Positions 1,666 through 12,360 of a stretch of 39,458 nt of DNA are shown here, piece by piece. The notes under the pieces were generated by a model, which was not told the origin of the DNA, searched no databases, and saw only the letters and a program-made list of their open reading frames with translations. This stretch comes from a virus, in the IMG/VR virus record IMGVR_UViG_3300041809_000312, positions 1 through 39,458 of that record; one strand, 5' to 3'. A program made the translations under genes and the position numbers. Within the stretch, counting starts at the first letter, position 1. Each line of letters opens with the position of its first letter.

Positions 1666-1864
1666 TCGTTCGTCCTTTCGCTATTTCTGGATCTCTCATA
1701 GCTATTAAATCAAGTCTATTATCATCAACAGTAGGTTTTCTAGGACCTCTTTGCACTTTTATAGATTTCCCGTGTGAATTAAGTCCTTGTGCATTAAGTA
1801 TAGCAGTACGTTTACGTCTATATTCACGTTGCCACGCTCTGTATTCGTCTGTCCCGTATCTCAC
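1646..1864 (-). CDS. Small basic hypothetical protein, 72 aa
   Basis: The gene starts with a GTG overlapping the TGA of the DNA polymerase gene (GTGA), a coupling arrangement seen throughout this arm. The N-terminal third is rich in Arg, Tyr and Trp (DEYRAWQREYRRKR), suggesting a basic helix that could bind nucleic acid. The C-terminal part is polar with no obvious fold. I do not recognise a family. It overlaps the next gene by 20 bases. Confidence 0.7.
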   Translation of the reverse strand: MRYGTDEYRAWQREYRRKRTAILNAQGLNSHGKSIKVQRGPRKPTVDDNRLDLIAMRDPEIAKGRTNDLRAI

Positions 1865-4341
1865 AAGTCTTTCACCTCTTTCATATCTCCTTCAAACCAA
1901 GTCTCACCTATAGCAACTTCACATGGAATCACTAATTGATAATCACGTACAAGAGTACAAATACGAAAATCTATAGGTACCGATTCGATGTTCTTTTTGT
2001 AAAGACGTCCAAAATCCATTGCTCTTTCTTTTCTAACTTCAGCAAGGATTCCATCGTGAGCCTCCGCCAATAGTAAGGCCCAGTTATATATGTCACTAGT
2101 GCTGAAAGTTTGACCAATACCGTGAAATTTTGTTTGATCTGATACGATAGCTTGTGGTAATTGACTAATTCCTTCGTTGTAAGTATGTTTATCAACTCTA
2201 TCGAAAAAGTCACGCCTTCTACCATTAGGCGCAACAAGACAGTGAGTAGGAGCGTCAATAGCTTTAATAACATCACGATGAAAAACTTCCTTAATTTCTG
2301 GTTGAAATTGATGAAATGTGCGTAAAATGTCATTGCACTCTCTCCAAGGACGTTGTGTCATCATAACCATGCGTTCCGGTCCCATGTTTCGCTCTCCAGC
2401 GTGCCGCACGGTTTTAGCCATATGATATCTGTCAACGCCATCAACTAATATATTTTTCTTTATCTCAGAAGGCTTACAATTATAAACCCAACTACCAGTG
2501 AGTTTATGAATACCTGGATTGTCAAAAACCGACATGTCAAAAACGCCCGACAATACTCTATCCACACGAGCTTCTGCCCCAGATAAATCACATTCAACAA
2601 ACACAAAGCCATAGCTAGGCACAAAAATACTTCTGAGATCTTTTCCATATGTTGTTCCATCGATCATAAAGCCATGTTTGCCTATCGTCTGCAAACTATG
2701 ACCGTAGTTCGGCAGGTTCCCTTTTGCTGATTTGATTAATTTACCAGTATCTTCATCTATAGCAAAATACTGATCCGTGGTCTCACTGGAAGAAGATCTT
2801 CCCGTTTCGGTACCAGCGAGATTGTATTCGCATCTAAATCTACCGTCAGGATGGATTGGTAGTTCCAATATTTCAATGACTTTATGTATTTTGCGTGCTC
2901 CAATAACGCTAGACAGAACAAGTGGCCCCGTACTAGAAGCACGTTTAGCTTCACCATAAACACTAAGAAGCTCAAGACTCTCCTCATCTGTTGATAGACT
3001 CCCGTCGTCGTTAGTTTTCATACCACGTACTTTACTATAACCAAGTTCTTCAAAAATAGCCTGTTTTACTTGTTTTGGGCTAAGAGGATTAAAGTACGAC
3101 GTGTTCAGTAGATTCTTACACTTAAGTACTTGAATACGAAAAAGACTCTCGTACTTAGCAAGTAACTTAAAACGTTGCTGTTCGTCAATCCTGATACCAC
3201 GATCTTCCATCTTTCGATAAATCGGCATCACCCGTATCAGATTTTTGTAGACGTAATCAGTTCCAAGTTCGACCGTCTCTTTCCTTTGCTGTGCGTAAAT
3301 TTGAGAAGTTGCCAAACTATCTTTTGCATTATAAAGATAATATCGGTCTCGTTTACTACGATCTGGATCAAAGTCTTTTCCTTCATCTTTGAAATAAGGC
3401 AGATCTGTGTATATGGAAGTAAGAAATCCCAGATTCTTAGGGAATTCACAATATAAAGTGGAAGCTGCAAGCATGGTATCCCCGATGACGTTATTAACGA
3501 CAAATCCCCAACGCTCCATGATTTTCCAGTCATACTTGATGTTTTGGTTTACCTTTGGGATTGGACTCCTGAGAAGTTTATCAACTAAATCCATCATTAA
3601 AGTACGATAGTCACGATCTATCGTCTGGTCAATTAAAGGAACACATACACTTTCGAAACCATCAAAACAAAAGCTAATACAAATTGGAATCTGTAAGAAT
3701 GTCTCTATATCAAATGTTAGAAACCCACCACTCGTTAATGTCTTCTCATAATTACGTTCTATAAAAGATCGTAAGGCACTCGATGTTCGAGCTACCCAAA
3801 TATTATAAACGTTATCTGGAATAGGGTTGTTGTTGAGATACTTTGAAATCTTGGAGAAATCGATACGTGTGATAACACGCAGACGATATTCTTGATTTAG
3901 GTAGGGATACGGCCCGAGGATAGGTAAAACTTTTAAGTCCGGTTGATGTACCTGAAAAGTGCCCGATAAAGGAAGCACGCTTCCACGAAACTTACGTATA
4001 TTAGACAAATTAGTAAGATAGTTGAAACTGAGTTCTCCAAGTGGTATAAGTAAAAAAGGATGCAAAGTATTAATTTCATCAATGAGAATATTACCATAGC
4101 GACTAACAAGTTCTTGCGTCTTTGATCTTTGCTTATCATCTTCTCCATCCTTTGGCAAAGGTTCTTTGATTAAACACGTTCGCCACATATCGTCAATGTG
4201 GAGACTCTGTTCTTTGCAGAAATCGTTAAGCTGATTTCCCGTGTACCCACTTAAAGCATAGTCCGTCTCTAAGTCTTTACCGTGAGGTCCATCTGCTATA
4301 AAAAAAGCAAGTGGATGTTGGTTACCGTGACCACGGATCAT
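1861..4341 (-). CDS. Family A DNA polymerase with N-terminal uracil-DNA-glycosylase-like domain
   Basis: The 826-residue replicative polymerase has three parts. Residues about 1-165 look like the uracil-DNA-glycosylase fold: ADGPHGKDLETDYALSGYTG where family 4 enzymes have GEAPG...G.aG, then TCLIKEPLP, LIPLGELSF, KFRGS and ILGPYPYL. The catalytic GEAPG-type residues are not kept. Residues about 200-355 are a 3'-5' exonuclease with D211/E213, N267/D271 and Y337/D341. Residues about 370-826 are the polymerase: TGRSSSS near 513, motif A D585-x4-E590, motif B R638/K643 and motif C H762-D763. All exonuclease and polymerase catalytic positions are present, so synthesis and proofreading should both work. 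The ATG overlaps the stop of the upstream small gene. Confidence 0.95.
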   Translation of the reverse strand: MIRGHGNQHPLAFFIADGPHGKDLETDYALSGYTGNQLNDFCKEQSLHIDDMWRTCLIKEPLPKDGEDDKQRSKTQELVSRYGNILIDEINTLHPFLLIPLGELSFNYLTNLSNIRKFRGSVLPLSGTFQVHQPDLKVLPILGPYPYLNQEYRLRVITRIDFSKISKYLNNNPIPDNVYNIWVARTSSALRSFIERNYEKTLTSGGFLTFDIETFLQIPICISFCFDGFESVCVPLIDQTIDRDYRTLMMDLVDKLLRSPIPKVNQNIKYDWKIMERWGFVVNNVIGDTMLAASTLYCEFPKNLGFLTSIYTDLPYFKDEGKDFDPDRSKRDRYYLYNAKDSLATSQIYAQQRKETVELGTDYVYKNLIRVMPIYRKMEDRGIRIDEQQRFKLLAKYESLFRIQVLKCKNLLNTSYFNPLSPKQVKQAIFEELGYSKVRGMKTNDDGSLSTDEESLELLSVYGEAKRASSTGPLVLSSVIGARKIHKVIEILELPIHPDGRFRCEYNLAGTETGRSSSSETTDQYFAIDEDTGKLIKSAKGNLPNYGHSLQTIGKHGFMIDGTTYGKDLRSIFVPSYGFVFVECDLSGAEARVDRVLSGVFDMSVFDNPGIHKLTGSWVYNCKPSEIKKNILVDGVDRYHMAKTVRHAGERNMGPERMVMMTQRPWRECNDILRTFHQFQPEIKEVFHRDVIKAIDAPTHCLVAPNGRRRDFFDRVDKHTYNEGISQLPQAIVSDQTKFHGIGQTFSTSDIYNWALLLAEAHDGILAEVRKERAMDFGRLYKKNIESVPIDFRICTLVRDYQLVIPCEVAIGETWFEGDMKEVKDL

Positions 4342-4556
4342 TTTTTGTCCGCTCTTATTTCCTTCAACCTATCAATCACTCTATGAGCTTCGTCACGAGT
4401 CAGATCATCTAAAAACTCAATTTGACGATGCAACATATGTGTCAACCACGCATTTCTGCTCTCACGCGTGAAGTCACATTCGTTAAAAAGCAGCATCATG
4501 TAGTCTATCATTTTACGTGTGGGTGACATGTATTTAGTTCCTAGAATTGTGGGCAT
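4338..4556 (-). CDS. Small helical hypothetical protein upstream of polymerase, 72 aa
   Basis: The product is a predominantly helical 72-residue protein with the segment RNAWLTHMLHRQIEFLDDLTRDEAHRVIDRLKEIRADKK, a helix-turn-helix-like ending also seen in small phage accessory proteins. Function unknown. Its TGA overlaps the polymerase ATG, so it is probably translated together with it. I chose the ATG at 4556. A TTG three codons upstream (4565) is the only alternative, and neither has a strong ribosome site. The gene follows a 113-base non-coding gap that holds two hairpins. Confidence 0.7.
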   Translation of the reverse strand: MPTILGTKYMSPTRKMIDYMMLLFNECDFTRESRNAWLTHMLHRQIEFLDDLTRDEAHRVIDRLKEIRADKK

Positions 4557-4571
4557 TTCTTTCAAAGCCGC

Positions 4572-4679: not shown

Positions 4680-4922
4680 CTAGAGATCAGGCCTTTTACG
4701 ATGAGGCCATAATCTAGCTAACTCTCTATGAACAATTACAGATTGTATAAGTCTACTATCACAACCAGCAGCCGAAGCTAGTTCTGCATATAAAGTTAAC
4801 ATTGGTATAAAAAATATATCCTGAGCACGCAAAAGAAAAACAGGTTCATCTTTTGGAATTCCCTTATCTTTTGCGTTCAAAGGATCTTGAATACGATTGT
4901 AGTCTTTACGAGCGTGAAGCAT
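4680..4922 (-). CDS. Conserved small phage protein, partner of the Acb2-like gene, 80 aa
   Basis: The protein begins MLHARKDYNRIQDP and continues with IPKDEPVFLLRAQD, a pattern I associate with a widespread family of small phage proteins of unknown function. The C-terminal half, ELASAAGCDSRLIQSVIVHRELARLW, is a helical pair. The ATG lies two bases after the stop of the Acb2-like gene, so the two are co-transcribed and probably coupled. Phage genes of this kind often sit beside Acb2 homologues, which suggests a counter-defence or regulatory context, but that link is inference. Confidence 0.75.
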   Translation of the reverse strand: MLHARKDYNRIQDPLNAKDKGIPKDEPVFLLRAQDIFFIPMLTLYAELASAAGCDSRLIQSVIVHRELARLWPHRKRPDL

Positions 4923-4924
4923 AA

Positions 4925-5170
4925 TTAATATTTTCCACCATGTGTAATAGCACTATTACAATTCATACGTGCCTCACGAAGCTTACGCAAAGCTACTGCT
5001 CTATCAGGACACGATGGAACATTTTCTATAATTTGAGCAAAGGCTTCTTCAAGTACTCTACGTACTCTAATACCTTTACTCACTTGTTCATCATTCCATT
5101 TATGATATTCAAAGATATCTTCAAGATCAATAGGATCAATAGTCTTAGCTCTGTTAATATCAATAGGCAT
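4925..5170 (-). CDS. acb2: Acb2/Tad1 hairpin-domain protein (probable anti-CBASS cyclic-oligonucleotide sponge)
   Basis: The 81-residue protein has the layout of the Acb2/Tad1 hairpin domain: IDLEDIFEYHKWNDEQ at residues 14-29, then a long helical hairpin with EEAFAQIIENVPSC and PDRAVALRKLREARMN, ending in NSAITHGG. Known Acb2 proteins end the same way, with A-x-x-L-x-E-A-x-M-x-x-N-x-A-I. Such proteins form hexamers that soak up cyclic di- and trinucleotide signals made by CBASS immune enzymes. The protein would act in the infected cell's cytoplasm. Its start overlaps the stop of the SSB-like gene (TAATG), so it would be made early with the replication proteins. Typical homologues are of similar length. 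Ligand range cannot be read from sequence alone. Confidence 0.85.
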   Translation of the reverse strand: MPIDINRAKTIDPIDLEDIFEYHKWNDEQVSKGIRVRRVLEEAFAQIIENVPSCPDRAVALRKLREARMNCNSAITHGGKY

Positions 5171-5611: not shown

Positions 5612-6442
5612 TTAGGTTCCTTGTGTCTCTTGGACTTTTTTCATAACAAAATCTCTAAAATTAACATTAGTGATATCATGCCTGCCGGGCTTGAATCCGG
5701 GAAAGCTCGTACAAGCTATATTAGAAATAAATTCAACATAGAACTTTTCTTTACCACCTTCTACACATCTGTCAAACCGGAAGATGTGATCGAAGTATAA
5801 AGTACAATTAGCTGCTATTTTATCACGAAGTGAGATCTTTTCGCCCGTTACCACACTTTCCGCATAGGGATCAGGCGTGCTGTCATCTTTTAGTGGTTTC
5901 GAATAAACAGGTACAACGTGTGCTGTTACAATAACATTCAACGGTATGGAACGTAAAAAACTGAGATAAGCATCAAATCCTGTAGACTCAAAACCATAAT
6001 CCGACGGTCCGGCCATTTCCATTGTACCAATACGACGACCTGACGGTTTACCTTTTTCGGTGGTATGCGTCAGACCGATTGCATCTAAAATGAGATTTTT
6101 GCAAAAAGCCGTGGCGCTATCACTTACATAAGTTTCATAAGGTGATTGCCCGCTTTGAATCTGCTGAAGCAAGATTTCTAGATCCGGGTTCACACGATCA
6201 AAGAAAGTTTTATCAGACACTACACGTGGCGGATAGTAGTCATAGTCAATACGATTTTTATCAATCCACGGTGCTCCTAAAATACCACGAATACGACCAT
6301 CACCATCCAACACTTTCATACGTTTTGTAGAAGGTGATGGACTCATCCAGGAACACGCAGCTACAGTTTTACCTGAATGTTTCGGCCCGACAAAAAGAGC
6401 CATAAAACGGCTATCGTGTGTTAGTTTGCTAGCTAGAGGCAT
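5612..6442 (-). CDS. Sak4-like RecA-fold ATPase (AAA_24 type)
   Basis: The 276-residue protein has a Walker A motif GPKHSGKT at residues 19-26, an acidic strand MKVLDGDGRIRG soon after, and SPYETYVSDSATAF in the Walker B and sensor region. This is the compact RecA-core architecture of the Sak4 single-strand-annealing recombinases. In phages these stimulate annealing together with an SSB, which fits the SSB-like gene four bases downstream. LNVIVTAHVVPV at the C-terminal third matches the usual 'T.H' strand of the family. The ATG has AAGGAA upstream. It probably handles recombination-dependent replication and repair in the cytoplasm. Confidence 0.85.
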   Translation of the reverse strand: MPLASKLTHDSRFMALFVGPKHSGKTVAACSWMSPSPSTKRMKVLDGDGRIRGILGAPWIDKNRIDYDYYPPRVVSDKTFFDRVNPDLEILLQQIQSGQSPYETYVSDSATAFCKNLILDAIGLTHTTEKGKPSGRRIGTMEMAGPSDYGFESTGFDAYLSFLRSIPLNVIVTAHVVPVYSKPLKDDSTPDPYAESVVTGEKISLRDKIAANCTLYFDHIFRFDRCVEGGKEKFYVEFISNIACTSFPGFKPGRHDITNVNFRDFVMKKVQETQGT

Positions 6443-6443
6443 T

Positions 6444-6692
6444 TTATTTCCTTATAACTTTTATTGAAAGATCTACTTCTTCATAATCTTTAATACTTGT
6501 TAGATTTTCATAAGAGGTCATAGTATATGTATAATCTGTTAATTTTATAATTGCATTATTTACTGTCATATAAAGTCCGTAGCCTTGTGAGTTACCATGT
6601 ACTATTACCCGACCATAAAAAGCGATTCCAACTGGTGGTACACCCTTATAAGTTGGTCTTTCTATTTTTATTTCATCTTCTATTTTGATCAT
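6444..6692 (-). CDS. Small beta-rich hypothetical protein, 82 aa (paralogue of the next gene)
   Basis: The sequence is mostly short strands, with GVPPVGIAFYGRVIVHG, a central LTDYTYTMTSYENLTSI and the ending DYEEVDLSIKVIRK. The ending matches EYEEVDLEINVLRK of the upstream gene, so the two look like a tandem duplication. Function unknown. It ends one base before the ATG of the Sak4-like gene and overlaps the upstream gene by 20 bases, consistent with translational coupling. Confidence 0.75.
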   Translation of the reverse strand: MIKIEDEIKIERPTYKGVPPVGIAFYGRVIVHGNSQGYGLYMTVNNAIIKLTDYTYTMTSYENLTSIKDYEEVDLSIKVIRK

Positions 6693-6957
6693 CTTTTGCC
6701 TTTCTTAAAACATTAATCTCTAAGTCTACTTCTTCATATTCCATAATATAAACATTTTTTAAATTTATACTCCAAGTATTTAGAAGATCAGTTACTGAAG
6801 ATCTTTCTTTATTCAACATAACTATACAGCCATAAGCTTTTATAAATAAACCTACATGTACCCCAATTACTCCGGTAAATGCAGTTCCTTCTAATATATC
6901 TAGAGCACATTTTGATTCTATTTTATAAGGTTCTCTTTGGTAGTTTATTGTAATCAT
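6673..6957 (-). CDS. Small beta-rich hypothetical protein, 94 aa (paralogue)
   Basis: The ATG at 6957 overlaps the TGA of the upstream gene (ATGA), so I take it over a longer frame beginning at 7005. The protein has a GTAFTGVIGVHVGLFI stretch equivalent to GVPPVGIAFYGRVIVHG in the downstream paralogue, and the shared ending YEEVDLEINVLRK followed by a short charged tail. No family recognised. Together with its neighbour it looks like a small duplicated beta-barrel or beta-sandwich module of unknown job. Confidence 0.75.
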   Translation of the reverse strand: MITINYQREPYKIESKCALDILEGTAFTGVIGVHVGLFIKAYGCIVMLNKERSSVTDLLNTWSINLKNVYIMEYEEVDLEINVLRKAKDDQNRR

Positions 6958-7265
6958 GTCGGCCTCACGTGTGGGAACTTCACGTCTGGAAGATCTCTTG
7001 CCCACTTAAGTAAATCAATAGGTGCGATATCTTTAACACTCTTACCAACTATCTCTTCAAAAGACACTCCTAATGCAAGACCTAAGCCTTGAAAGAATGC
7101 CATATCACGTTCCGCATTAACATCCACATCCACCAAAGTAGTCATTTTATGGCACACGGGACACGTAAATTCTTTCTGACGTATCGAGTTCCCTTGTGAC
7201 TGATTAGCACGTTCTATCATATACATTGAAATACGTTTCACGATTCGGATTTCAGTGTCGGTCAT
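6954..7265 (-). CDS. Small hypothetical protein with CPVCH motif, 103 aa
   Basis: The N-terminal 30 residues form a basic helix. A single CPVCHK element follows at about residue 35, and the C-terminal half is helical (FEEIVGKSVKDIAPIDLLKWARDL). One CxxC is not enough for a full zinc site unless His residues or a dimer complete it. The ATG overlaps the stop of a 13-codon frame, and the TGA overlaps the ATG of the next gene. Function unknown. Confidence 0.75.
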   Translation of the reverse strand: MTDTEIRIVKRISMYMIERANQSQGNSIRQKEFTCPVCHKMTTLVDVDVNAERDMAFFQGLGLALGVSFEEIVGKSVKDIAPIDLLKWARDLPDVKFPHVRPT

Positions 7266-11978: not shown

Positions 11979-12360
11979 CTTGAGCCGATGTGTGCTCAAA
12001 ATGCAATTGCAGTTCTTTTGCGGGTTGCCGTTTTGCTCGCCGCGCCTGACGTTGGGATTCGATATCTTTCATTTCGTCAAAGCGTGACGCCTGCAAAGAT
12101 TGAATCTCTTCGAGTGTTTCTCGCGTCATTTCCCGTATTTGTTCGTACTCTTCGAGATCATCGTCATCGATTAGTTCTAACAGGTACGAAGTATCTTGGA
12201 ACGCAAGACGTGCTGCACGTGGATCTTTCAGGAGTTTCTGAAGTTTAGGCACGGTGTATCCGCGCTGACGTTCCGTGTACTTTGTGTCGGAATCGATCTC
12301 ACGGATGAGATCTAAAAGGTACTGCGCGCTATCGCTAGGTAACTGTACAAAGTGTGGCAT
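11974..12360 (-). CDS. First gene of the left arm, acidic helical protein, 128 aa
   Basis: This is the promoter-proximal gene of the leftward operon. An AAAGGT precedes the ATG at a usable distance. The product is helical throughout, with a strongly acidic centre (LIDDDDLEEYEQIREMTRETLEEIQSL) and a basic C-terminal stretch (RQARRAKRQPAKE). No family recognised. Position and composition would suit an early regulator or host-interaction protein, but that is inference from location only. Confidence 0.75.
   Translation of the reverse strand: MPHFVQLPSDSAQYLLDLIREIDSDTKYTERQRGYTVPKLQKLLKDPRAARLAFQDTSYLLELIDDDDLEEYEQIREMTRETLEEIQSLQASRFDEMKDIESQRQARRAKRQPAKELQLHFEHTSAQV

Follow-up and report, generated by a model that had tools for sequence, protein, structure and literature searches.

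Acb2 proteins, phage sponges that take up the alarm signals of bacterial anti-phage defence, are the closest described counterparts of the protein reported here. One is Acb2 of Pseudomonas phage PaMx33 (gp24, p26; PDB 8H2J, 8IXZ), the p26 protein of PMC12043709 and PMC10419184. The Acb2 protomer consists of a short N-terminal helix and two long antiparallel helices (PMC10419184), and one such sponge can take several signals (PMC12043709). In Acb2 of phage T4 (Vs.4; PDB 7UQ2), the Y8A mutation disrupts dinucleotide binding and Phe82 stacks on the base (PMC12657218). Another homologue, Acb2 homologue 43, has been solved as PDB 9PTQ. Tad1 (Thoeris anti-defence 1) has at its C-terminus a hairpin of the same Pfam family, PF24729 (Acb2_Tad1_hairpin), in addition to an N-terminal antiparallel beta-sheet domain. 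In PaMx33 Acb2, K26 and R67 contact the ligand.

Here we describe a small gene on a 39,458-nucleotide stretch of viral DNA (IMG/VR record IMGVR_UViG_3300041809_000312), which we refer to as the window. Its product is most likely a putative cyclic-nucleotide sponge of the Acb2 type. The gene lies in a replication-gene block beside a member of a protein family that has not been annotated.

Results

The hairpin gene is a genuine accessory gene in a replication block

The gene has an ATG start and encodes a protein whose translation contains ...EEAFAQIIENVPSCPDRAVALRKLREARMNCNSAITHGGKY, the pattern from which a first-pass annotation had recognised an Acb2-like hairpin. Its start shares the sequence TAATG with the stop of the gene upstream, and the next open reading frame starts at 4922, 2 bases past its own stop; both junctions are as first described. 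Since the gene overlaps its upstream neighbor at this TAATG and no clear Shine-Dalgarno sequence was found upstream of it, it is probably translated by coupling to that neighbor. The closest copy is on another viral contig, L136, with 62% identity in the matched segment. Changes between the two copies at codon positions 1, 2 and 3 number 17, 15 and 38, respectively, and identity peaks in the annotated frame. The open reading frame is therefore a genuine conserved gene under purifying selection. Its G+C content is 34.6% compared with 37-41% in the neighboring genes, which weakly fits acquisition.

Table 1. Genes surrounding the hairpin gene in the window, ordered by position.
Gene product	Position	Strand	Remarks
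Family A DNA polymerase with 3'-5' exonuclease domain	1861..4341	-	Profile matches
75-aa product of small gene before polymerase; TTG start	4338..4565	-	Weak GemA and RecT-annealing-protein tail matches only
80-aa protein, unannotated HARKDYNRIQDP / DEPVFLLR (HARKDY) family	4680..4922	-	Family usually without hairpin neighbor
Probable Acb2_Tad1_hairpin protein, 81 aa	4925..5170	-	Profiles, alignment, model; Y22 and R37 at Acb2 pocket positions
DUF669-like (SSB-like) protein, 145 aa	5170..5607	-	PF05037 18.7 bits, cut-off 21
AAA ATPase, probably Sak4-type	5612..6442	-	Weak AAA_24 match

The ATPase, SSB-like and PolA genes flanking the hairpin gene bear out its earlier placement in an operon-like replication-gene block, and the same minus-strand block also holds a SNF2-type helicase and a PD-(D/E)XK nuclease. 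This location is what the analysis shows with regard to the first-pass proposal of expression at the very start of infection. Orthologues of the DUF669-like gene were found in two related phage records, L017 and L018. In the two closest relatives of the window, whose polymerases are 69% identical, other small genes lie between SSB and PolA. Both the hairpin gene and the gene following it are absent from these sister phages, so what fills the space between SSB and PolA is variable. In a more distant relative, L137 (polymerase 31% identical), a hairpin gene of the same subtype lies between the polymerase and an SSB-like gene, the latter called by position and length as it has no Pfam match. The copy in L136 sits after structural-type genes instead of replication genes. 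The hairpin gene is thus an accessory gene in a slot of varying content, either acquired by the window phage or lost from the sister phages.

Two other features of the region were observed. The N-terminal 150 residues of the polymerase, which precede its exonuclease and polymerase domains, match the uracil-DNA-glycosylase superfamily weakly (PF03167, E 0.12) and are perhaps a fused UDG-like domain. The overlapping small genes at 6444-6692 and 6673-7005 encode proteins with similar C-termini (...YEEVDLSIKVIRK and YEEVDLEINVLRK), a possible tandem duplication.

Profiles in both directions favour a place for the protein in the Acb2/Tad1 hairpin family

When the window protein was examined by hmmscan, PF24729 matched at E 9.4e-6 with 26.2 bits, 0.8 below the curated cut-off of 27 bits, and phrog_1454 matched it at E 4.2e-9. 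The sole other PF24729 match in the window, at 12028-12165, scored only 12.7 bits and is put down to chance. The model matched 0 of 7 related phage records (L017-L023, found via the ATPase and in some cases fragments). Given this low second score and the lack of matches in these records, it appears that the model rarely fires by chance.

As a query, the single hairpin protein retrieved no relatives in a scan of viral contigs and only chance matches in the PDB. A viral scan based on an alignment of the hairpin subfamily gave 15 loci, from which a 14-sequence subfamily alignment was built that includes no Acb2 of known structure. PF24729 matches 14 of these 14 sequences at E<=0.01, the best at 3.9e-24. 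In the opposite direction, the subfamily profile was compared with solved structures, and the closest relative was Acb2 homologue 43 (9ptq) at E 9.3e-8, with a match spanning 60 residues. T4 Vs.4 (7uq2) followed at E 0.0075, a weak sequence relation, and Tad1 chains at E 0.07. By tblastn (E 1e-3 to 7e-3), the nearest relatives in named phages come from Lactococcus phage 1706, Mycobacterium phage ScoobyDoobyDoo and Tunturiibacter phage Tunturi_1, all three of which have PF24729 matches above the cut-off. The 1706 orf70 and ScoobyDoobyDoo gp210 proteins, annotated only as hypothetical or unknown, are about 39% identical to the window protein and have the pattern YHKP...ALRKLREA...AN.aI in common with it, although they have longer C-termini and other genome contexts. 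Together with the tyrosine and basic residue described below, the agreement of profiles in both directions backs the family assignment made at first pass, and we consider it quite likely that the window protein is a distant member of the Acb2-type family.

The tyrosine and the basic residue at Acb2 pocket positions are conserved in the subfamily

Five residues, F20, Y22, H23, A60 and N72, are invariant across the 14 subfamily sequences, and R37, P52 and M69 are almost so. Y22 aligns with Y11 of PaMx33 p26 and Y8 of T4 Vs.4. R37, located 15 residues past Y22, aligns with K26 and K23 of these proteins, respectively, so that the basic pocket residue is an arginine in the window protein and a lysine in PaMx33 Acb2. 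Homologue 43 has a basic residue at the R37 position but a threonine in place of Y22. The base-stacking phenylalanine of T4 is absent, with T76 at the position aligned to F82, a residue that we did not take as defining the Acb2 family. R57 aligns by spacing with R67 of PaMx33, an arginine in both, although this position varies among subfamily relatives (R, Q, K and others). Judging from Y22 and R37, cyclic dinucleotides are plausible ligands; because the R57 position varies in relatives, we do not extend this prediction to trinucleotides.

The predicted fold is that of a helical hairpin

A single-chain model of the window protein (mean pLDDT 83) has helices at residues 16-19, 27-50 and 55-77. 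Apart from about 15 unstructured residues at the N-terminus, it is all-helical. This short helix followed by a two-helix hairpin agrees with the fold expected from the first-pass annotation, and the layout is the one described for the Acb2 protomer (PMC10419184). The Tad1 N-terminal beta-sheet domain is absent. A Foldseek search of the PDB ranked Vs.4 first, yet with an E value of 2.3, and the VIA-align Z scores of Vs.4 (6.1) and Acb2 8h2x (6.0) lie among those of unrelated helical hairpins. Structure searches by themselves are uninformative for a two-helix hairpin. The predicted fold is therefore compatible with Acb2 but adds no proof.

Identity to the characterized proteins is low, 16% with PaMx33 Acb2 in a six-sequence alignment and about 18% with T4 Vs.4 in a structural alignment. 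The window protein resembles PaMx33 Acb2 in its predicted hairpin fold, its pocket pairing and its location in an early or replication gene block. They differ in that the stretch between the helices is shorter in the window protein, and the PaMx33 gene closes the early block, where it borders the structural genes, whereas the window gene is placed otherwise.

The HARKDY protein represents an unannotated family

The protein encoded after the hairpin gene keeps the family motif HARKDYNRIQDP...DEPVFLLR.QD. In Pfam, PHROGs and NCBIfam nothing matched it at E<=1, and a search of plasmids gave no match; other family members had weak database matches only, the best to a PHROG at 0.0059. A scan of viral contigs confirmed 109 relatives, of which 80 were kept. 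A further 14 turned up in a scan of cellular genomes, belonging to Alphaproteobacteria, Bacteroidota, other MAGs and one Lokiarchaeota bin. INPHARED, searched with two queries, one being a composite consensus and not a natural sequence, yielded no HARKDY match; even chance matches were missing at E<=10, and no conclusion was drawn. The model of the HARKDY protein has a conserved extended N-terminus and a predicted C-terminal two-helix hairpin, and a structure search with it gave no significant match. The idea that it is a diverged hairpin protein was rejected, as the two family profiles are unrelated (hhalign probability 0.2). With the queries used, replication-gene neighbors were recognised in only 10 of 94 HARKDY loci; wherever the context was readable, the gene lay in the vicinity of SSB and PolA.

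Some neighboring genes are of interest in their own right. In L027 and L048, a small cysteine-rich protein (MADFCKxCS...CEGCGxIQVD...) adjoins HARKDY upstream and resembles ORF35 of PaMx33 (L007, 10478-10714). In L079, two tandem genes at 2876-3654, one gene upstream of a HARKDY gene, encode hairpin-like C-termini (RALALTKAEESLMWW) with weak PF24729 matches.

Discussion

The window protein is most likely a putative Acb2-type cyclic-nucleotide sponge. By homology with Acb2, its helical hairpins would assemble into a homohexamer, which would bind and hide cyclic oligonucleotides produced by CBASS-type systems of the host. Signals of type III CRISPR or Panoptes-type systems may be sequestered as well. 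With its signal hidden, a host effector would not be switched by it.

A sponge of this family could instead be directed at another signal, such as gcADPR of Thoeris or cA3/cA4 of CRISPR, in which case CBASS would be a secondary target or none at all. The hairpin domain is common to Tad1, sponges for multiple signals are known (PMC12043709), and the positions of T4 Phe82 and PaMx33 R67 are not kept in the window subfamily. Since the 81-residue, all-helical protein is without the beta domain of Tad1 and retains the tyrosine of the dinucleotide pocket, we hold this to be possible but somewhat unlikely. A different proposal is that the protein is a replication accessory which has lost, or never had, the ability to bind nucleotide signals. 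Its gene lies between SSB and PolA both here and in the distant relative L137, and its model is that of a generic hairpin only. This is hard to reconcile with the absence of the gene from the nearest relatives, which have these replication genes too, or with the copy in L136 that follows structural-type genes. The conservation of Y22 and R37 across the subfamily likewise counts against a replication accessory, which we regard as unlikely.

The first-pass annotation had further suggested that the hairpin gene and the small gene after it may be a counter-defence unit. The two genes are 2 bp apart, and both are missing from the two closest relatives. The window's order ATPase-SSB-hairpin-HARKDY-small-Pol recurs, with a hairpin gene of another subtype, in L025/L033 and the near-identical L026/L036. 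In L069 the order is SSB-HARKDY-p26-type Acb2-Pol, with Acb2 29 bp after HARKDY. Across the records examined, however, PF24729 was above its cut-off in only 3 of 57 HARKDY records, two of them near-identical contigs (5 of 57 counting weak matches), and HARKDY was found in 0 of 13 other hairpin-bearing viral records. HARKDY directly abuts Pol in L071, L106 and L077, and follows SSB in the first two, in each case with no adjoining hairpin gene, while L137 has a hairpin gene in the SSB-PolA slot without HARKDY. The two families are also unrelated by profile. As HARKDY genes mostly occur without a hairpin gene, and hairpin genes elsewhere without HARKDY, the suggestion is unsupported, and a dedicated two-gene unit acquired together is unlikely. 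On the best reading, HARKDY is a replication-block gene, at least in these phages, alongside which sponge genes at times settle. It is doubtful, though conceivable, that HARKDY itself acts in phage replication or counter-defence, at times together with Acb2-type sponges, with the SSB-PolA gap repeatedly taking sponge genes of different subtypes. Hairpin-domain genes occur in other settings also: in Arthrobacter phage Jasmine (L005), a second, weaker one at 3219-3419 (gp10) directly follows the first (gp9), ahead of the terminase.

The assignment would add an uncultured phage lineage to those with Acb2-type sponges, and it indicates that the family can be recognised even when the Pfam score is slightly below the cut-off. 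The unannotated HARKDY family merits separate study. The presence and absence of the hairpin gene among phages with a common replication block make it a clean accessory gene for tests of ligand range.
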